The notes under the pieces were generated by a model. The model was not told the DNA's origin and ran no database searches. It saw only the letters and a program-made list of their open reading frames with translations. A stretch of 50,040 nt of DNA, taken from NCBI GenBank assembly GCA_900318535.1, contig ONKU01000025.1:1-50040 (forward strand). The letters are read 5' to 3'. Shown here in pieces: positions 10,346 to 48,189 of this stretch. Origin of the DNA: an uncultured Prevotellaceae bacterium. GTDB taxonomy: Bacteria; Bacteroidota; Bacteroidia; Bacteroidales; Muribaculaceae. A program made the translations under genes and the position numbers. Every line of letters begins with the position of its first letter. The first letter of the stretch is position 1.

Positions 10346-12313
10346 ATGAAGAAATTTTTATTTACTCTTGCTGCTTTGATGATGGCAGGTTCTGCTTTTG
10401 CAGACAACTACTTCTTCATCGAAGACTTTGAGGTACCTCAGGACAAACTGGGTAGCACTATGAAGGTAGATGTCAAGGCTCACTTTGACAACTATGTTAG
10501 TGCATGGCAGTTCGATCTGGGTTACGTGGATGAGAATGGTGACGTTGTTATGAACGCACTTCCTGAGGGCATCACTAAGGTGACATCTGCTGCTGGTGCT
10601 GATATGAAGAATATGCCCTACACCGGTGATGATGGTGAAGATTATGATGACTATTCACCCAACCTGAAGAAGGGTATGGATGGCACCCGCATCATTGTTG
10701 CTGCTGATCAGGGTAACTATAGCCCCGACGGTGAGCTTTATGGTTGTGTAAAGTGGGCTCCTGCCGATTATGGCCAAATGTGGACGTTCACCTTTACCAT
10801 CGCTGCCGACTTCAAGGGCGCAACTCTCGTTCTTCAAACTGCACCCTCTTGCGGTACCGATACCCGTCCCGAGGTTCAAGAAAATACTTGTCCTAAGAAT
10901 GAAACGTTTGTTAGGAACACTGTTATTACCGTTGAGGGTGGCACCGTTGAGCCCGAGGTAACCGCAACTCCCGTCATCACCTACGATGATGAGACCTTCA
11001 CTGTAACCGCTACCGGTGCTGGTGAGGTTAAGCTGTACGTGAACGGCGAAGAGGTTGAGAACCCCTACACCTTCGAACTGGGTGAGGAGGAGACCACCTA
11101 CACCGTTACCGCTACCGCTCAGGAGGAAGGCAAGGAGATCAGCGAGACCGCTACTCTCGAGGTTACCGTTCCTGCTGCTCCCGTTGTAATTGAGGTAACT
11201 CCCAAGCCCCTCATCGACGTGTTTGATGATCCCGAGGCTCAGACCGTTACCGTTAAGGCTTCTGGTTATGGCCACATCTGCATCTACTGGGATGACATGC
11301 TCCAGGCTGAGGGCGAAGGCGAAGCTGTTTGGGTAATTCCTTACGGCGACGATCCCGAGGGTGAAGAGTATGGCGTAAGCGCTACCGCTCAGGAGGAAGG
11401 CAAGGAAGTCAGCGAGTATGCTCTGGCTACCGTATTCGTTCCTGGCAAGAGCGTTGAGCCCCAGCCCTATGAGACTCCCGCTCCCGAAGTCGTTGAGACT
11501 ATGACCGACGATGCTCTCTTGATCACCGCTACTGGTGAGGGTACTGTAACTATCTATGTTCAGACCATCGACAACGAGACCGGTGCAATTACTACCGAGA
11601 CCTACGAAGGCGAAGGCACTGTTAGCGCAGTGATCCCCCGTGGTGATGAGACTTATTTCATCAACTACTGGGCTGTAGCACAGGCTAACGAGGATGCCGA
11701 ACCCGGCAGCACTCAGGTTTCTTACTTCGTTGAGGTTCCCGCTCAGGAGATCACCCCCGTTGATCCTAGCCACGAGCAGGGTGTTTGGATTGTAACCTAC
11801 CTCGTTGACGGTACTGAGTTCTGGCAGGAGATGCTGCCCTCGAACAATGACTACACCTGCATTGTTCGCTTCAGCTATGGCAACTATGGCACCTTCCCCT
11901 ATGATCCCAACAAGAGCATGGCCGAGAACGACGCTATGCGTCCCAACATGCCCTTCTACATCGTTATCGATGGCGTTCGCTACGGTGCTGCCGAGGATGG
12001 CACTCTCTGCGTTCTGGGTACTGCTCTGAGCAACGAACTCTTCGAGAACGAGAACGACTACGTGCTTGAGAACGCTCTTGGTCGCGTTTACAACATGGGC
12101 GTAGCTATCGACGAGTTGGATCCCTCTAAGAAGTATGTTTACGCTGCTGTTGCTGCTTACACTGAGGTCGAGGAGATGAACGCTAGCAAGACCGTTGCAG
12201 GCGTACGCTACTTCAACATGGCCGGTCAGGAGATGCAGGAGGCTAACGGCATGACCATCGTCGTTACCACCTACACCGACGGTACCACCAGCGCTGTTAA
12301 GGTGATGAAGTAA
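10346..12313 (+). CDS. Secreted cohesin-like/Ig-repeat protein A with C-terminal sorting-type domain
   Basis: The 655-aa protein has a 19-residue signal peptide. An N-terminal domain (about 20-190) resembles the cohesin fold: KVDVKAHFDNYVSAWQFDLG, then PEGITKV and a GELYGCVKW stretch. Three or so Ig-like repeats of about 80-100 residues follow, marked by TVTATAQEEGKEISE-type strands. A distinct domain occupies about 475-610. The last 43 residues (KTVAGVRYFNMAGQEMQE and TTYTDGTTSAVKVMK) match a C-terminal domain found on many Prevotella/Muribaculaceae exported proteins and thought to act in sorting. Acidic composition and strong GCT/ACC codon bias suggest high expression. The ligand is unknown. 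Confidence 0.7.
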   Translation: MKKFLFTLAALMMAGSAFADNYFFIEDFEVPQDKLGSTMKVDVKAHFDNYVSAWQFDLGYVDENGDVVMNALPEGITKVTSAAGADMKNMPYTGDDGEDYDDYSPNLKKGMDGTRIIVAADQGNYSPDGELYGCVKWAPADYGQMWTFTFTIAADFKGATLVLQTAPSCGTDTRPEVQENTCPKNETFVRNTVITVEGGTVEPEVTATPVITYDDETFTVTATGAGEVKLYVNGEEVENPYTFELGEEETTYTVTATAQEEGKEISETATLEVTVPAAPVVIEVTPKPLIDVFDDPEAQTVTVKASGYGHICIYWDDMLQAEGEGEAVWVIPYGDDPEGEEYGVSATAQEEGKEVSEYALATVFVPGKSVEPQPYETPAPEVVETMTDDALLITATGEGTVTIYVQTIDNETGAITTETYEGEGTVSAVIPRGDETYFINYWAVAQANEDAEPGSTQVSYFVEVPAQEITPVDPSHEQGVWIVTYLVDGTEFWQEMLPSNNDYTCIVRFSYGNYGTFPYDPNKSMAENDAMRPNMPFYIVIDGVRYGAAEDGTLCVLGTALSNELFENENDYVLENALGRVYNMGVAIDELDPSKKYVYAAVAAYTEVEEMNASKTVAGVRYFNMAGQEMQEANGMTIVVTTYTDGTTSAVKVMK

Positions 12314-12336
12314 TTCATTCCCCTTTAACGCTAACC

Positions 12337-12374
12337 TAAAAAACGGGCGACCCCTTCGGGCCGCCTGTTTTTTT
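12337..12374 (+). terminator. Terminator of gene A
   Basis: A hairpin with stem AAAACGGGCG/CGCCTGTTTT and inner CCC/GGG pairs is followed by a T-tract. The same core (ACGGGCGACCCCTTCGGGCC) follows gene B. Confidence 0.9.
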
Positions 12375-12401
12375 ATCCGTTCCCCCACGTCATAATACCC
12401 A

Positions 12402-12483
12402 ACGTCAAGCCGCAAAGTTTTTGGATCGCGCTGCGCGCGAGCAACCCATTAAAACTTCGCGTCTTTGCGTCTTCGCGTGAGGC
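12402..12483. repeat. 8-nt-period palindromic intergenic repeat (family A)
   Basis: The left part reads CAAGCCGCAAAGTTTTT and the right part ends ACTTCGCGTCTTTGCGTC and then TTCGCGTGAGG. It is a member of the dispersed family also seen at 12542, 17856, 32611 and 42122. The two halves here are joined by a GC-rich hairpin (GATCGCGCTGCGCGCGAGC). Confidence 0.6.
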
Positions 12484-12541
12484 ACAGGCTCCGGAGCCAA
12501 ATGGTGCAGAGCATTAGATATATTCGTTTAATTCGAAGACC

Positions 12542-12569
12542 TTTAAAAACTTAGCGCCTTCGCGTGAGG
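12542..12569. repeat. Half-copy of family A repeat
   Basis: It reads AAAAACTTAGCGCC followed by TTCGCGTGAGG, the right arm only. The rest of the 12314-12994 gap holds the promoter and leader of gene B. Confidence 0.55.
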
Positions 12570-12678
12570 TTTTGTGGTGTTGTTTGCGCTACTGTTGCGG
12601 CATAGGTTTAATTCGTTAAATTCACCACCGTTTTATAAAAAAAAAGGGGTTTTATTTTGCAGGATATAAAAAAGTGTG

Positions 12679-12686
12679 TATCTTTG
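12679..12686 (+). promoter_or_regulatory. Promoter of cohesin-like protein B
   Basis: TATCTTTG followed by CA, as in gene A, about 308 bases upstream of the ATG at 12995. Confidence 0.65.
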
Positions 12687-12994
12687 CAAGACAAGATGGA
12701 CCAGCTAATCACGATTACTAGTAGTATCATGATGAAGGAACTTGATGACAGTTAGTGTTTAACCTCTAAAGCAGGCGTCCTCAGCGGGGCCGCTTGACGT
12801 GTGCTGGTGCACCACCTCAACCACTCCAGATGAACACATGGCTGTCAACCTCGATTAATACAAACAATTGAACCATTATATAGTTATTCCGGAACTCTTT
12901 GATAATCAAAACGGATGATAAACCTTGAAATGCATTTTACTATCGAATTTGTGTGTTATTTTTTATATTCATTAATTTCTAAATTGTTAAATTT
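12687..12994 (+). promoter_or_regulatory. Long 5' leader of gene B
   Basis: The leader shares with gene A the GC-rich segment with CACCACCTCAACCACTCC (about 12810-12830) and the block GTTATTCCGGAACTCTTTGA (about 12883-12902). Between these blocks the sequences differ, so the blocks look selected. A GTG-started 10-codon frame (VLVHHLNHSR) overlaps the first segment. Another frame, ATG at 12696, would encode a 19-aa peptide. Confidence 0.5.
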
Positions 12995-15730
12995 ATGAAA
13001 AAATTTTTATTTACTTTATTGACCTTGTTCATGGCAAGTAGTGCATTTGCAGAAGGCGGAAACTACTTCTACATGGACAACTTCACCGTTGTCAAGACAA
13101 AGCTTGGAACTGTTACGGTCAAGGCCAATGTCAAAGCTCATTTTGACAATTATGTCTCAGCATGGCAGCTCGATTTGGGTTACGTTAATGAGGCTGGTGT
13201 AGAGGTGATGAATGCACTTCCTGAGGGTATCACCAAGGTGACATCTGTCGCTGGTGAAGATATGAAGAATCTGCCCTTCATTGGTGAAGATGGTTCAGAA
13301 GGCGAATTTTCACCCAACATCAAGAAGGGTATGAGTGGTACCCGCCTCATTGTTGCTTCTGATGAGGGTAACTATAGCCCCGATGGTGAACTTTATGGTT
13401 GTGTAAAGTGGGCTCCTGATGATTATGACCAGATGATGGTCTTGACATTTACTTGTAGCAAGGACTTCACTGGTGCTAAATTAATCTTGAAGACTTTGCC
13501 TAGTTGTGGTGCCGACACTCGTCCCGAGATCAGTGAGAACCTGGCACCCACTGTCTTGGCTACATCTCCTGTGTGCATCGTGGATGTTAAGTATATCGCT
13601 CCTGAGCCCGTGTTCACTTGGAACGAGACTACTTACACCATGGACGCTGCTGTTCCCGAGGGTTACGATGCCGAGGACTATGAAATCGTTATGTATGCTA
13701 ATGGTGTGGAGGTAGAGTTCCCCTACACGGTTGAGCAGACCACCGATGAGCAGACCATCGTGTTCACTGCTTACACCAAGCACGCTGCTGACGAGACTTA
13801 TGACAGCAACGACGCTACTTATGGCAAGACCACTGAGCAGACTGTAACTGTTCCCGCTAAGCAGGAGCAGCAGGAGCCCGCTCCCGCTGCTACCATCTCT
13901 AACGAGGGCAATGTGGTAACTGCTGCCGTTGCAGGCCACACCGTTGAGCTCTACATCGTAACTAAAGATGGTGAGGGTAATGAGGTGCTCACTGAGGTTC
14001 CCAACCCCTACACTGTAGAGCAGACTTTCAGCGAGCAGAAGATTACCTTCAAGGCTTTAACCAAGGCTAACGAAGGCGAGAGTGAGGACACTTGGAGCGA
14101 GCCCAAGGAGATCACCATCGACGCTAAGCCCGACAACCAGTGCCCGCAGCCCGAGTTCGCTTATTATCAGACGCCTGACAACGAGTTATGGGCACGTGTG
14201 ATGTATTATGGCGAAGCTCCCTACACTGAACACGTTGAGCTCTATATTGTAACCACTAATGATGAGGGTGAAGAAGTCCTCACCCCGGTTGACAACCCCT
14301 ACAAGGGTCTGCCCACCGAGAACAACACCTTCGAGGACATTGTTGTTAAGTTCAAGGCTATCGTCAAGGCTGATGGTGTGAACTACAACGTTGACAATTA
14401 TGACTACTACACCGTTACCATCCCCGGTAAGGAAGACAAGCAGGCTCCCGCTCCCACCTTCCGCGTTGAGGGTGACAAGCTCTATGCCGAGCAGGGTGGC
14501 CTTACTGTTGAACTCTACAAGAAGAACGATGATGGAACTTGGACCAAGGTTGACAACCCCTACGAGGGTCTGCCCACCGAGAACACCTCTTACACCGATC
14601 CCATCAAGATTGATTTCAAGGCTATCACTCTTGCCGACGGTGTGACCTACAACCTCAACAGTGACGAGGCAACTTACACCTACACTATTGATCCTCTGAA
14701 CAAGAAGACTGCTCAGAAGCCGACCATCGTAGGTGCTAACGAGACCGATGCCACCTATGACATCGTTATCACTCCCGATCCTAACACCGATGGTACTCTC
14801 GAATACACTGCTACTCCCATGGGTGCCGTTGTACGTGCAGGCGCTACCACTATCCGGTACGAACGCCAGGATGCTCCCTACACCGTACACGTAGAGGCTT
14901 CCACCACCGCAGGTGAAACCTACCTGGCATCTGAGGTTGCAGAGGCTGACATCGTGATCCCCGCTAAGCCCGCTGCTCCCAATGTTTATGAGACTCCCGC
15001 TCCCACCATCAATGTAGATACTGACACTGAGAATCAGAAGGTGATCATCACCGTTACTGGTGAAGGTACTGTAACTGCAGCCGTTGAAACTGCTGAGGGA
15101 ACTGAGAACTACACTGATGAGGATGGCGATGGCAAGATCGTTATCGAAATCCCGTTCGGTGAAGAGGCTGACATCGCTAACGTAACGGCTACCGCTTTGG
15201 CTACAGTGGTTCCTGATGGTTACGATGTTATTTCTGAGACTCCCGGTAAAGATACGAAGAGTATCGACATCCCCGCTCTGCCCGCAAAGACCGCCAAGCC
15301 CACTATCACTTATGAATATGGTAAGGCCACTTGGGACGCCGACGGCAACCTTGTTGAAGATGGTCGCTATGCAACCATTACAATCACCAACAATGACGAG
15401 GGTGAAAATGTCGTTATCGAGTATAGCTTGGATGAGGGCGAAACCTGGCTCACTTACGATCCCGAAGTTCCTGTAACCGTAAGTGGTGAAGGTACTCACA
15501 CTGTAATGGCTCGTGCTCAGGCTGAAGGCAAGCGCGTGAGTGATCCTGCAACTGAGACCATCAAGATTGACAAGGCTACCAGCGTTAGCGAGCTCGTAAA
15601 CGGCAAGACCGTTGCTGGCGTACGCTACTTCAACATGGCTGGTCAGGAGATGCAGGAGGCTAACGGCGTAACCATCGTTGTTACCACCTACACCGACGGT
15701 ACCACCAGCGCTGTTAAGGTTATCAAGTAA
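12995..15730 (+). CDS. Secreted cohesin-like/Ig-repeat protein B with C-terminal sorting-type domain
   Basis: The 911-aa protein is a paralogue of the gene before it. It has the same 19-residue signal, the same cohesin-like domain (VKAHFDNYVSAWQLDLGYV, PEGITKVTSVAGEDMKN, SPDGELYGCVKWAPDD) and the same 43-residue C-terminal domain. The middle is longer, with about seven Ig-like repeats, several sharing the pattern VELYIVT followed by NPY and FKA. Repeats at about 420-500 and 500-570 are close copies (NPYKGLPTEN and NPYEGLPTEN), so the array has grown by internal duplication. The protein is very acidic. It is probably surface-exposed or released. Function unknown; adhesion or complex assembly is the best guess. 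Confidence 0.7.
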   Translation: MKKFLFTLLTLFMASSAFAEGGNYFYMDNFTVVKTKLGTVTVKANVKAHFDNYVSAWQLDLGYVNEAGVEVMNALPEGITKVTSVAGEDMKNLPFIGEDGSEGEFSPNIKKGMSGTRLIVASDEGNYSPDGELYGCVKWAPDDYDQMMVLTFTCSKDFTGAKLILKTLPSCGADTRPEISENLAPTVLATSPVCIVDVKYIAPEPVFTWNETTYTMDAAVPEGYDAEDYEIVMYANGVEVEFPYTVEQTTDEQTIVFTAYTKHAADETYDSNDATYGKTTEQTVTVPAKQEQQEPAPAATISNEGNVVTAAVAGHTVELYIVTKDGEGNEVLTEVPNPYTVEQTFSEQKITFKALTKANEGESEDTWSEPKEITIDAKPDNQCPQPEFAYYQTPDNELWARVMYYGEAPYTEHVELYIVTTNDEGEEVLTPVDNPYKGLPTENNTFEDIVVKFKAIVKADGVNYNVDNYDYYTVTIPGKEDKQAPAPTFRVEGDKLYAEQGGLTVELYKKNDDGTWTKVDNPYEGLPTENTSYTDPIKIDFKAITLADGVTYNLNSDEATYTYTIDPLNKKTAQKPTIVGANETDATYDIVITPDPNTDGTLEYTATPMGAVVRAGATTIRYERQDAPYTVHVEASTTAGETYLASEVAEADIVIPAKPAAPNVYETPAPTINVDTDTENQKVIITVTGEGTVTAAVETAEGTENYTDEDGDGKIVIEIPFGEEADIANVTATALATVVPDGYDVISETPGKDTKSIDIPALPAKTAKPTITYEYGKATWDADGNLVEDGRYATITITNNDEGENVVIEYSLDEGETWLTYDPEVPVTVSGEGTHTVMARAQAEGKRVSDPATETIKIDKATSVSELVNGKTVAGVRYFNMAGQEMQEANGVTIVVTTYTDGTTSAVKVIK

Positions 15731-15755: not shown

Positions 15756-15793
15756 AAAAAAACGGGCGACCCCTTCGGGCCGCCTGTTTTTTT
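15756..15793 (+). terminator. Terminator of gene B
   Basis: The hairpin is identical in sequence to that after gene A, with a T-tract of seven. Confidence 0.9.
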
Positions 15794-34784: not shown

Positions 34785-36311
34785 TTACTCGCCCCAGTTG
34801 CCACTCAGCAGGAAGTCGATCAGGGCGGTAACGTCGCTGATGCTCACGTTGGTGTCACCATCGCAGTCAGCTGCTGCGGGAGCTTCGGCACCGCTCAGCA
34901 GGAAGTCGATAAGAGCGGTAACGTCGCTGATGGTCACGTTGTTGTCGCCATCAACGTCGCCACGGATGAAGTCGGGCTGAACCTTCTCAATAAAGAGCTT
35001 CATCTCGTTGAGGTCAACGGTCAGGTTGTACTCGCCACCGGCGATGCGGATTGCATGATACTCGTCCCAAGTCAGTGAGATGAAGTCCTCTTCGCCCGTA
35101 TACCAGTAGTCGCCCTCGCTAATGGCACCAAAGCGGAAGGGCTCAATGTAGGCCCAACCACCATCGTCGTTATTCTCGGCGAGCTCAGTGGTGAAGCCAA
35201 ACCAGTTAGCCTCAGCCGGGAAGTTAATCGTAGCGGTGTAAACTTCGTTCTCGGCATCATAGGTAAACTCAGTGCCATTGCTGGGATCCCAAGGCTGGTC
35301 GTCGCCACCCAGCATGTAAACCTTTGCAGGCTCGGGAGCGGGCTCGTCCTTGGTCAGGCGGTATACGCTGATTTGTCCACCGGGAACATACTGGTAGATG
35401 GTCACGCCATTCTCGTCCACCTCGGCATTGAGCCAGTTGCACTGGATGCCATTAGGATTGGCAGAAACCGACGACGGTACCTCTACCAGAGGAGCCTCGG
35501 CACCAGCCTCGGCAATTGCCCAGCCGTCCTGATAGTTGGGCACGGTAGGATACAGGTAGAGTTCCTTGCCGTCAAAAATGATGGGGAATACACCGTTGCA
35601 AGCTCCCTTGTTAGGCAGTACGAGGCCAGTACGGGTGAAGTTGTCACCATCGGGTACAAGCTTGCCGGGAGCACCACTGCGATAAGCAAACAGCAAGGCA
35701 GGATCGCCATTCAGGTCGTTGTAGTAGTTGATGACGGTTGATTGGTTAGTTGCCAACCCAGCGCATTGAGCAAGATAGCAATTGTCATAATCAACCTCTC
35801 CACCAGTAACACTGAAGATGGCAACACCATCGGTGAAAACTTCAGCCGAGGTAAAACCGGTGAGGTACAGCACTCCGTCCTCCATCATATTGCCCTTGGC
35901 CATGCCGATGAAGTCGCAGCGGCCCAGCAGGCCCGACTCCTCGGGAATGGTATACTCGACAAGATCACCAGTATTGGGATTGATGACCTTAAGGGTGGCT
36001 TCAACCCAGCTGCCGGGGAATGCGGCGTTGCTGACCAGGATGTTGCCTGCCTCGTCACGTGAAATACCACAGTTGGCACCACCAGGGAAGGACTGGTTGG
36101 TCAAGCCATTCTCGTCGATGACATAAACAGCTTGATCGGCCTTGTTGTGAATGTAGAATTTGCCGTCCATACCAAATCCTTGACGTACGTCGTTGGTAGT
36201 GGCGAAATAGTCCAGTGCATTAAGCGTCCACAATTTCTCGAGTTTGTAGCCGTAAGCGTTTGCGCCCAGTGCTACTGCTGCCAGTGCAGCGATAAGTAAA
36301 AATTTTTTCAT
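34785..36311 (-). CDS. Secreted beta-propeller-like protein with two C-terminal dockerin-like repeats
   Basis: The 508-aa protein has a signal peptide (to about residue 19). Residues 20-320 look like blades of a propeller (GKFYIHNKADQAVYVIDENG, DEAGNILVSNAAFPGSW). Residues 330-445 hold a SusE/F-like starch-binding-type module (VYMLGGDDQPWDPSNGTEFT). The last 58 residues are two dockerin-type calcium loops, GDVDGDNNVTISDVTALIDF and CDGDTNVSISDVTALIDF, nearly identical in DNA with a 90-base period. A dockerin on a non-cellulosomal gut bacterium is unusual and could bind the cohesin-like proteins encoded at 10346 and 12995. Confidence 0.75.
   Translation of the reverse strand: MKKFLLIAALAAVALGANAYGYKLEKLWTLNALDYFATTNDVRQGFGMDGKFYIHNKADQAVYVIDENGLTNQSFPGGANCGISRDEAGNILVSNAAFPGSWVEATLKVINPNTGDLVEYTIPEESGLLGRCDFIGMAKGNMMEDGVLYLTGFTSAEVFTDGVAIFSVTGGEVDYDNCYLAQCAGLATNQSTVINYYNDLNGDPALLFAYRSGAPGKLVPDGDNFTRTGLVLPNKGACNGVFPIIFDGKELYLYPTVPNYQDGWAIAEAGAEAPLVEVPSSVSANPNGIQCNWLNAEVDENGVTIYQYVPGGQISVYRLTKDEPAPEPAKVYMLGGDDQPWDPSNGTEFTYDAENEVYTATINFPAEANWFGFTTELAENNDDGGWAYIEPFRFGAISEGDYWYTGEEDFISLTWDEYHAIRIAGGEYNLTVDLNEMKLFIEKVQPDFIRGDVDGDNNVTISDVTALIDFLLSGAEAPAAADCDGDTNVSISDVTALIDFLLSGNWGE
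34801..34957. repeat. 90-base direct duplication encoding the two dockerin-like loops
   Basis: Bases 34801-34867 and 34891-34957 align with few differences (CTCAGCAGGAAGTCGATMAG and ACGTCGCTGATG are shared). This looks like a recent duplication. Confidence 0.8.
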
Positions 36312-37999: not shown

Positions 38000-39097
38000 A
38001 TGATGAAAAGTGTAGGATCAATGGTGCTGATGCTGGTGGCAGGGCTGTCGGCTATGGCTCAGTCGTGGTTGGGCGGTGACATCTCGATGATGACGTCAAA
38101 TGCCCGCAATGGCGTGATTTACAAGGACTCTTGCGGAATGACAGTAGACCCGTATGACCTGTTCAGGCAGCAGGGATGGAACATGATGCGCGTGCGTCTG
38201 TTTGTCGACCCGCAGAATGCTCCTGGACGCCATCATGACGAGGGCGTGTGCCAAAATCTGGACTATGTGATTGACCTGTGCAAGACCATCAAGGCGCGAG
38301 GCTTTGAGGTCATGCTGGATTTCCACTATAGTGACACCTGGGCCGATCCCGCCAAGCAGTTTACTCCCAAGCGATGGGAGGGATTGGACGCTAAGGTGCT
38401 GACCGACAGTATCTATTGCTATACCCGCAACTGCCTGTTGGCGCTCAAGGCTGCCGGCGTCGTGCCCAAGACGATTCAGGTGGGCAACGAAATCACCTTT
38501 GGCATGGATTGGCCAGTGGGCCGTGTTGACGCGATGAATCCTGACAACTGGGACGTCCTTACCGGCTTGCTCAAGGCCGGTTGCAAGGCTTGCCGTGAGG
38601 TGTGCCCGTCGTCAGGCATCATTATCCACACCGAGAAGGCCGGCGTGTGGGAAATGACCCGTAACTACTATGATCGCCTGAAGACTGCCGGTCTTGACTA
38701 TGACATCATCGGCCTGAGCTATTATCCCATGTGGCATGGCACGATTCCCAACCTGGGCAGGACGCTCGACCTGCTTGCCGAGCGTTTCCCCGAAAAGCCC
38801 GTGATGATTGTCGAGGCCGCCTATTACTACCTGCATGACGGCGTGAACCGCGGCGAGGAGGATTTCACCAATTGTCCCCCGGGCACCATCAAGGGCCAGC
38901 GTGAGTTCACGGCCCAGCTAGTCAAGGAACTGAACCGCCACGACAATGTGACGGGCCTGTTCTGGTGGTACCCCGAGGAGAACCGCTACGGCACCCGCTT
39001 TGAACACAGCAACTGGGGCTTGAACCGCGGCCTGTTCAACAGTGCCAACGGCCAGGCCTTGCCCGCCTTCTACGAGATGAGCCGCTTCAAGCGGTAG
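38000..39097 (+). CDS. Endo-beta-1,4-galactanase, GH53
   Basis: The 365-aa protein has a signal peptide (to about residue 20) and the GH53 pattern: GGDISMMTSNARNG near the start, NMMRVRLFVDPQ and VMLDFHYSDTWADP. The acid/base Glu is in QVGNEITFGMDWP and the nucleophile Glu in PVMIVEAAYYYLH. GH53 cuts beta-1,4-galactan side chains of pectin. It lacks visible carbohydrate-binding or dockerin modules. It is followed 32 bases later by a DMT transporter with which it may be co-transcribed; the galactan or galactose link is inferred only from position. Confidence 0.9.
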   Translation: MMKSVGSMVLMLVAGLSAMAQSWLGGDISMMTSNARNGVIYKDSCGMTVDPYDLFRQQGWNMMRVRLFVDPQNAPGRHHDEGVCQNLDYVIDLCKTIKARGFEVMLDFHYSDTWADPAKQFTPKRWEGLDAKVLTDSIYCYTRNCLLALKAAGVVPKTIQVGNEITFGMDWPVGRVDAMNPDNWDVLTGLLKAGCKACREVCPSSGIIIHTEKAGVWEMTRNYYDRLKTAGLDYDIIGLSYYPMWHGTIPNLGRTLDLLAERFPEKPVMIVEAAYYYLHDGVNRGEEDFTNCPPGTIKGQREFTAQLVKELNRHDNVTGLFWWYPEENRYGTRFEHSNWGLNRGLFNSANGQALPAFYEMSRFKR

Positions 39098-44346: not shown

Positions 44347-46824
44347 ATGAAGAGAATCAAGTTATTGACTACGTTGGCCCTTGTCCTGGCCGCCATGACG
44401 GTGAGCGCCCAGTCGCCCATCGCTGTGGACTGGCGCATGGGTCAGAACAACACTACTGCCAACAATTACAGTTCGCGTTTCGTTATCAAGAACATTTCCA
44501 AGCAGCCGCTCAACAGCGACTGGGAGTTCTTTTTCAACCAGTTCTCACGTTCGGTGAGCGTGCCTGCGGGGTGCCCTGTTGACGTTGAGGAGGTCTCAAC
44601 GACCTATTACCGCATCAGGCCCAATGCCAATTACAAAACGCTTGCGGCCGGTGATTCGCTGGTGATTGACCTGGTGATGGGCGGCGCTCTCATCAACAAG
44701 AACTACATGCCCGGCGGTGGCCATGTGGTGCTGAACGGGGACATGACCAAGCCTATTGCGGTGAACATCAACCGCTCGCCGCTCGACAAGCCCGGGCAGT
44801 GGCGTGACCACAAGGCTTATCCCGACGGCAACTACATGTATGCCTACAATGAGGCCATCAACGGCTTTGGCGACGGCTACACGGGTAACGACTACGACAT
44901 CTTCCCCGCTCCCAAGCAGGTGGACATCGAGGACGGTTTCACCCAGGTGGGCAGCCTTGTGTCGATCAAATACGGTAAATGGTTCCAGTGGGGCGGTTAC
45001 CGCCGCGCCAAGGCGTTGCTCACCGATGAGTTGCAGAAACGTGGCGTGTATGTCTCCAGTGGCCAGAAAACCGTTATTGAACTGCTGCTGGACAAGAAAC
45101 TGAGCACTAACGGCGAATATTACACCCTGCGCGTGCATGACGGCAAAATCTCCATCCATGGCGTCACCCAAGCGGCGTTGATGAATGGCGTCAAGACGCT
45201 CATCGCTGCCCTTGACCACAGCAAGGGACACCGCCTGCAGAACTGCTTCGTCATCGACTGGCCCGACTTTGGCTACCGTGGCGTGATGCTCGACATTGCC
45301 CGCAACTTCGTCATCAATCCTGCCGACTTCAAGCGCACGATCGACCTCTTGTCCTACTACAAGATCAACACCATCCAGTTCCACTTCACCGACGATGAGG
45401 CCTGGCGACTGGAGATTCCCGGTTTCCCCGAATTGACGCAAGTGGCCGCGCGTCGCGGTGCCACGCTCGACGAGAAGGGCTATCTGGCACAGATTTTTGA
45501 CGGCAACGGCAACCCCGATGACCTGTCGCAGTGCGGCAACGGCTATTTCACCCGAGCCCAGTTCATCGAACTGCTGAAGTATGCCCGCGCCCATGGCGTG
45601 CGCATTATTCCCGAGATTGAGACGCCCGGTCATGCCCGTGCAGCCATCGTGGCAATGAAAAACCGCGCGATGAACAACCCGACGGCCGAGCAGTTCTGCC
45701 TGTGGGACGACAAGAACGAGAGCGTCTTCACCTCGGCCCAGAGCTATCACGACAACGTGCTCAACGTGGCCAGCGACGACGTTTACCGCTTTATCGACCG
45801 CGTTGTGGAGGAATTGCAGAAGATGTACAAGGAAGCTGGCCTGAAACTCGAAATCGTCCACCTGGGCGGTGATGAGGTACCCAACAATGCCTGGTCCAAG
45901 AGTCCCGACGTGCAGGCACTCATGCAGCGCGAGGGCCTCAAGACGCAGCACGAGGTGAGCGAGTACTACATCAAGCGCATCAGCCAACTGCTGGCTGCCC
46001 GCAAAATCCGCATTGAGGGCTGGCAAGAAGTGGCGCTCGACCACAAGCCCGAGTTTAATGCCGTGGTGGCTCCGCATGTTGCAGGCGTGAATGCCTGGAG
46101 CACAGTGGGTTCGCGCAGCGACGTGCCCTATCGTCTGGCCAACGACGGCTATCCCGTCATCCTGTCCAATGTGACCAACTTCTACATGGACATGGGCTAC
46201 AGCTGGCACCAGAACGAGCAGGGCTTGCACTGGGGCGGCAAGGTTGATGAGTTTGACGCCTGGAGCGGCCTGCCCGCCAATATTTACGCTTCAGCCCGCA
46301 CTGCCGTTGACGGTACTCCCCTCAACATCACCACTGCTGGCGACGGCAAGGCCAAGTTGGAGAAGCCCGAGAACATCATCGGCATCCAGGCCCAGTTGTG
46401 GGGCGAGACGTTGCGCAGCTTTGACGAGGTGCAGTACATGCTGCTGCCCAAGATGATGGGCGTGAGCGAGCGCGCCTGGACGGCTATGCCCGAGTGGAGC
46501 AAGAATCTCACCGACACTCAGGCCTATAACGAGGCCCGCCACCAGTATAACCTCAAAATCGGCACCCGCGAGCTGCCGCTGCTCAAGGGCATGGGCTTTA
46601 ATTTCCGCGTGGGTCCTCCGGGCATCAAGGTGGTTGACGGCATGCTCTACATCAACACCCAGTATCCCGATGAACTGGTGACTTACACCCTGGACGGCAG
46701 CGAGCCCACTGTGGACTCTCCCCGCTGGACGGCTCCTGTTCCCGTCAAGACTCAACCCCAGGTCATCAAGGCCAAGACCTTCTATCTGGGCCACGAGAGC
46801 GTCACCACCTACCTATTCAAGTAA
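44347..46824 (+). CDS. Beta-N-acetylhexosaminidase, GH20
   Basis: The 825-aa protein has a signal peptide (to about residue 22) and an N-terminal CHB_HEX-like beta domain (about 25-160). A GH20b domain (about 190-310) and the catalytic barrel (about 315-690) follow. Key residues are in FHFTDDEAWRLEIPGFP, IPEIETPGHARAAI and HLGGDEVPNNAW with the adjacent Asp-Glu pair of the substrate-assisted mechanism. The C-terminal CHB_HEX_C-like domain ends TYLFK. It releases GlcNAc or GalNAc from host or dietary glycans. Gene order with SusE- and SusC-like genes suggests a glycan-use locus. Confidence 0.92.
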   Translation: MKRIKLLTTLALVLAAMTVSAQSPIAVDWRMGQNNTTANNYSSRFVIKNISKQPLNSDWEFFFNQFSRSVSVPAGCPVDVEEVSTTYYRIRPNANYKTLAAGDSLVIDLVMGGALINKNYMPGGGHVVLNGDMTKPIAVNINRSPLDKPGQWRDHKAYPDGNYMYAYNEAINGFGDGYTGNDYDIFPAPKQVDIEDGFTQVGSLVSIKYGKWFQWGGYRRAKALLTDELQKRGVYVSSGQKTVIELLLDKKLSTNGEYYTLRVHDGKISIHGVTQAALMNGVKTLIAALDHSKGHRLQNCFVIDWPDFGYRGVMLDIARNFVINPADFKRTIDLLSYYKINTIQFHFTDDEAWRLEIPGFPELTQVAARRGATLDEKGYLAQIFDGNGNPDDLSQCGNGYFTRAQFIELLKYARAHGVRIIPEIETPGHARAAIVAMKNRAMNNPTAEQFCLWDDKNESVFTSAQSYHDNVLNVASDDVYRFIDRVVEELQKMYKEAGLKLEIVHLGGDEVPNNAWSKSPDVQALMQREGLKTQHEVSEYYIKRISQLLAARKIRIEGWQEVALDHKPEFNAVVAPHVAGVNAWSTVGSRSDVPYRLANDGYPVILSNVTNFYMDMGYSWHQNEQGLHWGGKVDEFDAWSGLPANIYASARTAVDGTPLNITTAGDGKAKLEKPENIIGIQAQLWGETLRSFDEVQYMLLPKMMGVSERAWTAMPEWSKNLTDTQAYNEARHQYNLKIGTRELPLLKGMGFNFRVGPPGIKVVDGMLYINTQYPDELVTYTLDGSEPTVDSPRWTAPVPVKTQPQVIKAKTFYLGHESVTTYLFK

Positions 46825-46878: not shown

Positions 46879-48189
46879 ATGAAAAACCTTTGGATTTCTG
46901 TAGTGCTGTTGGGTCTTCTGCCGTTGCCAGGATGGGCTTCTGTCGGGCAACAGTCAGATGGTCTTTCAGACTTACAGCGTGTGAGCACAAATGGCAAGAA
47001 TGCGGTATTAACAGGACAGACGAGCAAAGATGAGGTCTCGCTAAAGGGTCGAATTCTTCCCTGGGATGTGAATAGGGATGGCGAAGTGAACATTGCTGAT
47101 GTGAACAATGTCATTGATTATATCCTTTATGGCTGTCAACAAGAAATATCTTCAGCTTACTACTATGTGGGCACCAGCAATAATTGGACTCCTGGTGATG
47201 CCACCTATAAGCTGGATAACGGCGGTGGTGATGTTTATTCTAACCCCGTGTTTAGTGTAGTCATTCCTGCTGCGTATGGCGAGTTCGGTGCTGGACGCGT
47301 TGACAATTTTTTTAAGATTTGTTCTCAAGAGACCATGGACCTGGGTGCAGACGGTTTCTGGAACGGCGACTTCATTGGTAAGGCCACGAATATTGTCGAT
47401 CACGAGATGAGTGGATACTTCGTGGAGGACGCTTACGACCATGTTTTCAGTTTCGTCATACCCGCTGATATTCCAGCGGATAAGTATCGTCTGACTTTCG
47501 ACATGATAAACCGCTCCTATGAATTCGAGGCTATCAAGGAGTCGTCCGACCTGTGGTATCTTGTGGGAAGTTGCATCGGTGACGGCTCATGGGATAATAA
47601 TTATTATTCCTTGGGTACCTCGCTTGTTCCACTGTATCCTCAACCTGACAACAAAAATATGTTGAAATACGTTGGTTATTTCCCCGCTGGTGAGGACTTT
47701 AAATTAATTCATACGCCAGGTGAGTGGCAAGAGCAATGGGGCATGAGTGATGGCCGCCTCGTGAAGAACGATATCGGTAGTGATGTCATTAAGGTCACTG
47801 AGGACGGTTACTACCAGATTACCTACGACCTGACGATGGACGTTGTCACAATTACCAAATACACAGATGTTGTAGACGTTTTCACATCAATGGGTATGCC
47901 TGGCACCTATCAGGATGATCAGGCATGGGATCCTGCTACCACGCTGATGAGTCCTATGGGTACGGCCTTTGAGAACCATGACTGGATCAGGAAGAATATG
48001 ACCTTTGATTCCGATGAAGAACTCAAGTTTGCTGCTAATGGCGAATGGTATTATAACTGGGGAAGCGGGGCATTCCCAGTTGGCGTCGGTATACAATATG
48101 GTCCCAACATTCCTGTTAGTGCTGGAACTTATACGGTCGTTTTCAATGACATTTTAGGTACATATAATTTTATTGAGGAAACGGAGTGA
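46879..48189 (+). CDS. SusE/F-like surface protein with an N-terminal dockerin-like segment
   Basis: The 436-aa protein has a signal peptide (to about residue 20) and a single calcium-loop segment, WDVNRDGEVNIADVNNVIDY (about 62-82), of dockerin type, near the N-terminus. Three SusE/F-like beta modules follow, with YYVGTSNNWTPGDATYKLDN, WYLVGSCIGDGSWDNNYYSL and an AWDPATTLMSPMG third. These modules normally bind glycans. Base composition is more A/T-rich than in the neighbours, which may signal transfer. It lies between GH20 and susC. It lacks an obvious lipobox. Confidence 0.75.
   Translation: MKNLWISVVLLGLLPLPGWASVGQQSDGLSDLQRVSTNGKNAVLTGQTSKDEVSLKGRILPWDVNRDGEVNIADVNNVIDYILYGCQQEISSAYYYVGTSNNWTPGDATYKLDNGGGDVYSNPVFSVVIPAAYGEFGAGRVDNFFKICSQETMDLGADGFWNGDFIGKATNIVDHEMSGYFVEDAYDHVFSFVIPADIPADKYRLTFDMINRSYEFEAIKESSDLWYLVGSCIGDGSWDNNYYSLGTSLVPLYPQPDNKNMLKYVGYFPAGEDFKLIHTPGEWQEQWGMSDGRLVKNDIGSDVIKVTEDGYYQITYDLTMDVVTITKYTDVVDVFTSMGMPGTYQDDQAWDPATTLMSPMGTAFENHDWIRKNMTFDSDEELKFAANGEWYYNWGSGAFPVGVGIQYGPNIPVSAGTYTVVFNDILGTYNFIEETE

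Follow-up and report, generated by a model that had tools for sequence, protein, structure and literature searches.

The question raised by a 50,040-nucleotide stretch of DNA from an uncultured Prevotellaceae bacterium (contig ONKU01000025.1 of assembly GCA_900318535.1; the whole stretch is called the window hereafter) is whether a bacterium of this kind might build a surface assembly from cohesins and dockerins, the modules that pair in cellulosomes. Two tandem genes of the window, at 10346-12313 and 12995-15730, encode proteins in which a preliminary description had read a cohesin-like N-terminal domain (N-domain), and dockerin-type calcium loops had been read in two further genes at 34785-36311 and 46879-48189; an undescribed surface assembly was proposed. 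The window is one contig (C11; numbers with C, G and L are our handles for contigs, genomes and loci) of a 43-contig genome of 2.92 Mb that is 92% complete, and the host is a Gram-negative bacterium, probably of the gut. We favor the reading that a Bacteroidales lineage forms a surface assembly of cohesins and dockerins and that the window genes are part of it, with a probability of roughly 0.55 on the sequence evidence.

What strengthened this proposal lies outside the window, in 137 dockerin-bearing open reading frames (ORFs), in genes with several cohesins, in the co-distribution and adjacency of the two domain types, and in the interchange of dockerins with C-terminal tails. The co-location of the two within 40 kb contributes nothing, because the genome-wide density (137 dockerin ORFs in 2.92 Mb) leads one to expect 2.3 in 50 kb, and the window has two. 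The doubt voiced at the outset, that the co-occurrence may be chance, was thus well placed, and we rejected co-location as evidence.

Dockerins and Their Payloads

Among the 150 of 229 first-look candidates that were scored, 145 matched PF00404 at E ≤ 1 and 141 lay over the family cut-off, some of them only together with neighbours in frame. A purpose-built model, applied to 96 stretches around PF00404 matches, yielded the 137 dockerin-bearing ORFs, which are spread over 30 of the 43 contigs; 118 match Pfam Dockerin at E ≤ 1e-5, and 119 have two or more calcium loops. These loops follow the pattern D1-[DN]3-[DN]5-D12 in 231 of 259 cases, with isoleucine at position 10 in 97%, although the 259 were picked by a loose pattern that itself requires the last Asp. 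In 105 ORFs, 0-9 residues separate the dockerin from the C-terminus; in 30 it is internal or near the N-terminus. By a simple heuristic, 93 of the 107 ORFs with a dockerin at most 20 residues from the end begin with a start typical of signal peptidase I (SPI) substrates, 4 have a lipobox and 10 have neither (six of these ten are shorter than 200 aa). The genome therefore encodes many dockerin-bearing proteins that, judged mostly by signal-peptide-like starts, would be exported.

Counts of this size might also arise if EF-hand motifs matched by chance, or if contigs of a cellulosomal Firmicute had been binned with the genome, and 9 of 14 control genomes do match the dockerin model at E ≤ 1, two of them over the cut-off. 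At E ≤ 1e-6, however, none of the 14 controls matches, and dockerins were found at that threshold in all 37 genus genomes searched (5 to at least 87 per genome). Moreover, the broad spread over contigs and the sorting-type tails on dockerin proteins, present on two ORFs of this genome by model and detected by PF18962 over its cut-off in other families, also count against such an error. For the genus, these results speak strongly against an artefact, which we consider very improbable.

At E ≤ 1e-5, the recognised payloads of the 137 ORFs are led by Peptidase_C10 (18), the leucine-rich repeat (LRR) family LRR_5 (15), DUF285 (9), M6, FGE and CotH (7 each) and S8 (6). Glycoside hydrolase-type payloads comprise alpha-amylase (4), GHL10 (3) and GH53 (2). 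All of these counts cover the 25 commonest families per batch (of 30, 27 and 35), so rare families may be missed. The three peptidase families (C10, M6 and S8) account for 31 of the 137 ORFs, and many ORFs have no recognised payload. Cellulases and hemicellulases did not emerge as the main payload; the commonest recognised ones are proteases and LRR proteins.

Judged by the residue that follows ..D-V (L035-L130), the dockerins form a T class (76 ORFs) and an N class (46 ORFs), with 13 ORFs mixed and 2 unassigned. The idea that the classes represent separate subsystems was rejected, since both are found together in groups of proteins whose bodies are alike. Four ORFs (L048, L062, L063 and L119) have, by eye, FGE-like C-terminal ends and carry the dockerin after the signal peptide rather than at the end.

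Cohesins and Scaffoldin-Like Genes

A Pfam Cohesin search of the genome gave two matches, both sub-threshold, and one dockerin ORF in the batch (A5) that includes the 698-aa protein described below matches Pfam Cohesin as a whole at E 4.3e-9. We assembled an alignment of 23 cohesin domains (A4) by iterating a search that began with four seeds and covered Pfam Cohesin loci, N-domain loci and loci of the genome itself. Nineteen of its 23 members match Pfam Cohesin at E ≤ 1, and the five best matches of the A4 profile in the PDB are scaffoldin cohesins. The profile matches 6kgc at E 2.2e-4 across the whole domain and 5n5p at E 9.8e-6, the latter resting on two short pieces that are each weak alone.

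With the A4 model, six cohesins are found in the genome at E ≤ 1e-5, four of them being A4 members. Three belong to a 698-aa protein on contig C19 that, by domain models, consists of a signal peptide, three cohesins (Coh) and a dockerin (Doc), and whose gene adjoins that of a subtilase (1331 aa) bearing both a dockerin and a tail. Two others occur in LRR-Doc-Coh proteins, one of which has a tail, and the sixth is weak (E 7e-6, in a 219-aa frame on C20). In the same genus, G011 encodes a 6xCoh-Doc protein, and scaffoldin-like genes with several cohesins are thus found, by domain models, both in this genome and in a close relative. Beyond the family, G039 has 8xCoh and 5xCoh proteins with sorting-type ends by eye, and G084 has at least ten cohesins in one cut ORF. 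Among 61 related genomes, 22 have a Pfam Cohesin match over the cut-off, including 17 of the 37 genus genomes, and the cohesins are therefore not wholly beyond the Pfam model.

Multi-cohesin ORFs with 4 to at least 10 cohesins were noted in other families (L131 and L134 in G039, L137 and L138 in G084, L139 in G111, L140 in G215). Some have sorting-type ends, and several are cut by a contig or locus end.

Dockerin and cohesin stand in one ORF in the two LRR-Doc-Coh proteins, in the 3xCoh-Doc protein, in L004, L008 and L010, and also in G113, G147, G157, G171 and G178. It is conceivable that such Doc-Coh or Coh-Doc-Coh chains polymerise head to tail or cap themselves, and that the product is a surface filament rather than an enzyme array. 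This is improbable in our judgment, because 131 of the 136 ORFs of the genome with a dockerin match under our models carry the dockerin only.

Co-Distribution and Adjacency

The A4 model finds cohesins in 36 of the 37 genus genomes. Across 198 genomes of the order, the present one included, A4 cohesins occur in 17, dockerins in 40 and both in 14, a co-occurrence with a Fisher p of 1.0e-8, or 4.2e-8 without G000, G039 and G057 (phylogeny uncorrected in both cases). Only 3 of the 17 cohesin genomes have no dockerin at E ≤ 1e-6. Neighbourhoods were inspected for 18 cohesin loci in 15 of these 17 genomes, with G082 and G224 left out. In each of the 15, at least one cohesin locus has a dockerin in the neighbouring or the same ORF; this dockerin exceeds the Pfam cut-off in 14 of the genomes, G178 (18.4 bits) being the exception. 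For G174 and G221, the sole dockerin match at E ≤ 1e-6 is in the ORF beside the cohesin gene. Scaffoldin-like and dockerin genes thus adjoin in several families of a Gram-negative order.

Two genomes of family f94 (G130 and G232) show 29 and 14 dockerin matches and 169 and 110 first-look candidates, respectively, and no A4 cohesin. Among the matches listed, most of their dockerins start at profile position 8 or later, and perhaps they represent another dockerin type.

Tails and Dockerins Replace Each Other

The two window proteins are 49% identical over their first 346 residues and 84% identical over the last 50. By eye, both begin with a signal-peptide-like segment and contain Ig-like repeats, and the last residues of the tail are KV(M/I)K; both genes are ORFs on the forward strand, which bears out the preliminary description of tandem secreted paralogues with Ig-like repeats and a C-terminal sorting-type domain. 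The name of scaffold that it gave them is not supported; with one cohesin-like domain each, the pair is at most an anchor.

Their tail resembles PF18962 (Por_Secre_tail), the sorting domain of the type IX secretion system (T9SS), in its C-terminal position, its basic end and its attachment to many proteins. That family nevertheless gives eight matches in the genome at E ≤ 1 and none in the window tails. It was dropped as a model of the window tail, and a tail model (A9) was built from the tails themselves. For the same reason, that the window tail is a T9SS signal is something we infer. SprA, the T9SS part that was sought, is encoded in the genome (PF14349 E 8.4e-189, in a 2496-aa frame). Of nine dockerin neighbours checked, five have a PF18962 match over the cut-off, and each of these five comes from another family.

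The A9 model matches 18 proteins of the genome at E ≤ 1e-5. In a comparison made with tail and dockerin removed, a paralogue with a dockerin was found at E ≤ 1e-6 for 10 of these 18, or for 11 if an LRR protein with both modules is counted; in some cases the similarity covers only a short stretch. Six are clear exchanges of a tail for a C-terminal dockerin: a C10 peptidase (46% identity over 764 aa), L157 and L059 (48% over 256 aa), L151, L152 and L154 against L078 (36-46% over 333-543 aa), and L153 on contig C15, a tail-bearing paralogue of the dockerin protein encoded at 34785-36311 in the window (62% over 303 aa). Dockerin and T9SS-like tail therefore replace each other on paralogues, a window protein among them. 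A similar pattern is evident for the 24 different proteins with an N-domain that the loci contain: nine have a C-terminal dockerin, nine have a tail (ten with paralogue 2, whose locus is cut), three have an internal dockerin and a second cohesin with no tail by model, two are cut short, and none has both a tail and a dockerin.

Is the N-Domain a Cohesin?

The N-domains of the two window proteins, about 175 residues long, are 64-68% identical, and at E ≤ 1e-5 the N-domain model matches only this pair in the genome (n = 2). The underlying alignment (A3) has 25 rows from genus genomes and two named metagenome-assembled genomes (MAGs), RUG373 and RUG12992, which we take from their labels to be of rumen origin; a scan of named genome contigs found relatives at two loci only. 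Compared by hhalign, A3 and A4 score 97.1% (E 6.5e-11, 114 columns), and 96.8% after removal of members from proteins that have both domains. Among the controls, 60 column-shuffled alignments reached at most 0.7%, reversed ones at most 0.4%, and Ig repeats and dockerins 0.4%. A model made from A4 alone matches 20 of the 25 A3 members at E < 0.01 (E-values for the set of 25); paralogue 1 is included (E 0.0018), and paralogue 2 falls outside (E 0.056). Because of this score, its controls and the matches of the A4-only model, the N-domain most likely belongs to the cohesin superfamily as a remote member.

Several results weigh against the assembly, or against a place for the window pair in it. 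Neither full-length window protein matches Pfam Cohesin (PF00963) at E ≤ 10, nor does any of the 25 A3 members at E ≤ 1. Of the cohesin-like domain originally proposed, what survives is therefore a remote homology to Bacteroidales cohesins, not a match to the Pfam family. In the PDB, the best matches of the A3 profile are the carbohydrate-binding module CBM2 of 1exg (E 0.11) and the cohesin 2xdh (E 1.1), neither of them significant. The A3 model finds the domain in 16 of the 37 genus genomes, and it therefore cannot be the general receptor; in 24 genomes of other families the model finds none, and a single-sequence search gave one weak match (G045, E 0.002). The pair also has no dockerin-bearing paralogue in its own genome at E ≤ 1e-6, and its tails, as noted above, escape PF18962.

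It is possible that the system is real and that the N-domain of the pair has drifted to another ligand, such as a carbohydrate or a host protein, in which case the window proteins would be tail-anchored adhesins and the PF00963-type cohesins would be the receptors. We give this explanation somewhat less than an even chance. Besides the absence of Pfam matches and the weak CBM2-like match, it draws on a conserved stretch of the N-domain, containing W, Y and D residues, to which nothing in A4 corresponds, and on a distribution narrower than that of the A4 cohesins (16 versus 36 of 37 genomes). The dockerins on N-domain proteins, C-terminal in 9 of 24 and internal in 3 more, also favor it. However, Coh-Doc proteins act as adaptors in real cellulosomes, and a dockerin on an N-domain protein thus does not exclude dockerin binding. 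Furthermore, the copy number of the N-domain tracks that of dockerin candidates in the genus after correction for genome size (partial r 0.48, phylogeny uncorrected), which argues against such a drift. For the window pair, another ligand is at least as likely as dockerin binding, and we consider it less likely than not that its N-domain is among the dockerin receptors.

Six loci (L005, L009, L012, L014, L015 and L020) encode proteins of 250-290 aa with a signal peptide, a window-type N-domain and a dockerin, twice as tandem pairs. These are possible adaptors.

A Sorting Signal or a Binding Module?

Further counterpoints concern the lineage as a whole. The genome has six cohesins for 137 dockerin ORFs. 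Within the order, 26 of the 40 dockerin genomes have no A4 cohesin (other cohesin types were unsought there), and two genomes of the same family but of other genera have neither A4 cohesin nor dockerin. Three of the 18 cohesin loci inspected (L134, L138 and L146) have no dockerin. Counts of cohesins and dockerin candidates in the genus correlate (rho 0.49), but the partial r at constant genome size is 0.11, hardly beyond the effect of genome size, and we dropped the notion of a dose relation within the genus.

Some of these observations would be expected if the C-terminal dockerin were a sorting or stability signal that is read by the secretion machinery and has no cohesin partner. The position at the extreme C-terminus in 105 of 137 ORFs agrees with this, as do the interchange with the tail and the many dockerin genomes without an A4 cohesin. 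So does the preponderance of SPI-like starts over lipoboxes (93 versus 4 of 107), which leaves no visible route to the outer membrane. Nevertheless, multi-cohesin genes co-occur with dockerins and adjoin them, the calcium residues are kept in most loops, and 30 of the 137 dockerins are internal or near the N-terminus. We regard a signal of this kind as unlikely.

According to the assembly that we favor, a calcium-loop dockerin would be present on some 137 exported proteins, in most of them at the extreme C-terminus, the place that the tail takes on some paralogues. Cohesin carriers would be few, namely the scaffoldin-like 3xCoh-Doc protein, the two LRR-Doc-Coh proteins and, as remote relatives, the window pair. 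Those with a tail would leave the cell by way of the T9SS and become anchored on its surface; the dockerin proteins, together with the Coh-Doc scaffoldin, would plug into them. Each window protein would then present its single cohesin-like N-domain on a stalk of Ig-like repeats, with the tail at the end, and the two would be among the few cohesin-plus-tail anchors. We infer that the cohesins and dockerins of the lineage bind each other.

Alternatively, docking might itself be the export route. Dockerin proteins would bind cohesin carriers in the periplasm and cross the T9SS on the tail of the carrier, a single tail sufficing for many cargoes. The interchange of dockerin and tail at the C-terminus would then have an explanation, and, since proteases and LRR proteins are the commonest cargo recognised, the product would be a surface array of proteases and adhesins, not a cellulosome. 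We think this route doubtful.

If the partners do bind, cohesin-dockerin assembly would reach bacteria that are bounded by an outer membrane and anchor with a T9SS-like tail, and proteases, rather than cellulases, would be prominent among the cargo.

Comparison with Known Systems

The scaffoldin of Ruminococcus flavefaciens is built as a cohesin array followed by a dockerin, and anchoring in this Firmicute is of the sortase type. Anchoring in the R. bromii and R. albus type likewise differs from that in the present lineage, and phylum and payloads differ as well. Limousia is not known to have a T9SS.

The R. flavefaciens FD-1 cellulosome is similar in its very many dockerin proteins (222) and in the 16 peptidase and 28 LRR entries of its table (PMC2930009); it is, however, the CAZyme-rich system of a Firmicute, whereas here a Gram-negative host has T9SS-like tails and few recognised glycoside hydrolases. 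The R. bromii amylosome and the R. albus type share the excess of dockerins over cohesins (category iv, PMC6118326). The Limousia mucinolysome is likewise a cellulosome-like system with cargo other than cellulose enzymes (Doc-peptidases included), multi-cohesin scaffoldins with a C-terminal dockerin and an anchoring scaffoldin, although the host is Gram-positive and uses a cell-wall sortase anchor (PMC12997984).

Dockerins of the same kind are on record from rumen Bacteroidetes, members of the same phylum in a likely similar habitat (PMC7260996, PMC6071333, PMC7480376, PMC5830445), and the accessible portions of these four papers contain no scaffoldin-dockerin gene pairs, tail interchange or lineage-wide system. 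The 2020 rumen catalogue reports Bacteroidetes MAGs with few dockerins and no recognisable cohesin, and suggests that the role is unclear and the cohesins perhaps too distant (PMC7260996). With a model derived from this lineage, cohesins are detected in nearly every genus genome, where that catalogue found none with Bacteroidetes dockerins. In the camel rumen, dockerins are abundant in three Bacteroidetes bins, and cohesins occur in certain Bacteroidetes and Firmicutes (PMC6071333). Another study lists 15 MAGs with multi-cohesin proteins, one of which (RUG606, Prevotellaceae) has a two-cohesin protein (PMC5830445). Bacteroidetes cohesins have thus already been mentioned in print, in passing, by these two papers of 2018. 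The role of dockerins in Bacteroidetes polysaccharide utilization loci is called "not defined yet" in PMC7480376. Elsewhere, cohesin proteins were found in Firmicutes_A bins only (PMC9177762), and single cells from cockroach gut gave dockerins in three Bacteroidota groups and a cohesin in one Christensenellales only (PMC10266427). The word Bacteroidota is unused in the accessible portion of a review (PMC12484212), and PMC9763041 is a further related paper. A Bacteroidales scaffoldin system is not described in the leading titles and abstract openings that our literature searches gave; subscription papers (those on moose rumen and on non-cellulosomal cohesins among them) lay outside this scope, and an earlier description is possible.

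Features of the Window

Coordinates of the window features are collected in Table 1.

Table 1. Features of the window discussed in the text (position 1 is the first nucleotide of the window).
Feature	Position	Strand	Evidence
Paralogue 1 (655 aa): signal peptide, cohesin-like N-domain, Ig-like repeats, further domain, C-terminal tail	10346..12313	+	ORF list
Most likely cohesin-like N-domain, paralogue 1	10400..10936	+	Family model A3, E 4e-59 (sequence itself a member of A3)
Sorting-type tail of 50 aa, paralogue 1	12161..12310	+	Tail model A9, E 1.6e-32 (sequence itself a member)
Stem-loop behind paralogue 1, possible terminator	12346..12365	-	8 pairs, 7 GC; same as stem-loop behind paralogue 2
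Paralogue 2 (911 aa): plan as paralogue 1, Ig-like repeats more numerous	12995..15730	+	ORF list
Most likely cohesin-like N-domain, paralogue 2	13061..13591	+	A3, E 4.3e-54 (sequence itself a member of A3)
C-terminal tail, paralogue 2	15578..15727	+	A9, E 5e-33 (sequence itself a member)
Stem-loop behind paralogue 2	15765..15784	-	Identical to stem-loop behind paralogue 1
Exported propeller/SusE-F-like protein (by eye), full dockerin at end	34785..36311	-	ORF list, Pfam
Type I dockerin, two canonical calcium loops, T class	34806..34961	-	PF00404, E 2.8e-8 (genome search)
SusF_SusE protein with half dockerin near N-terminus	46879..48189	+	PF16411, E 7.7e-12, over cut-off
Single dockerin calcium loop, N class	47065..47127	+	Below family cut-off; 22.2 bits in genome search

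The two dockerin readings of the preliminary description fared differently. The protein encoded at 34785-36311 has Dockerin_1 at residues 451-502 (Pfam E 2e-7, 31.5 bits against a cut-off of 22.9), and its dockerin with two calcium loops is confirmed. In the 46879-48189 protein, one calcium loop beside a SusF_SusE domain is upheld, but a full dockerin is not, since the match to PF00404 spans one loop only and reaches 19.5 bits against the same cut-off.

For the tandem pair, Pfam gives no domain over cut-off in paralogue 1, and NCBIfam and Pfam together give no cohesin in either protein; the repeats of paralogue 2 have CHB_HEX_C and PKD matches in Pfam, both below cut-off. The case for the stem-loops as terminators is weak, because the stretch has nine terminator-like sites and shuffled versions of it have 6.2 on average. 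Before its tail, paralogue 1 has a further domain (11747-12145, about residues 468-600; GVWIVTYLVDG...YGAAEDGT...) that has no Pfam match over cut-off and may be SusE/F- or CBM-like; by eye it is also present in L006, L007, L017, L023 and L024. Two enzymes of the window, a GH53 protein (38000-39097) and a GH20 protein (44347-46824), have no dockerin, and two dockerin ORFs elsewhere in the genome match GH53.

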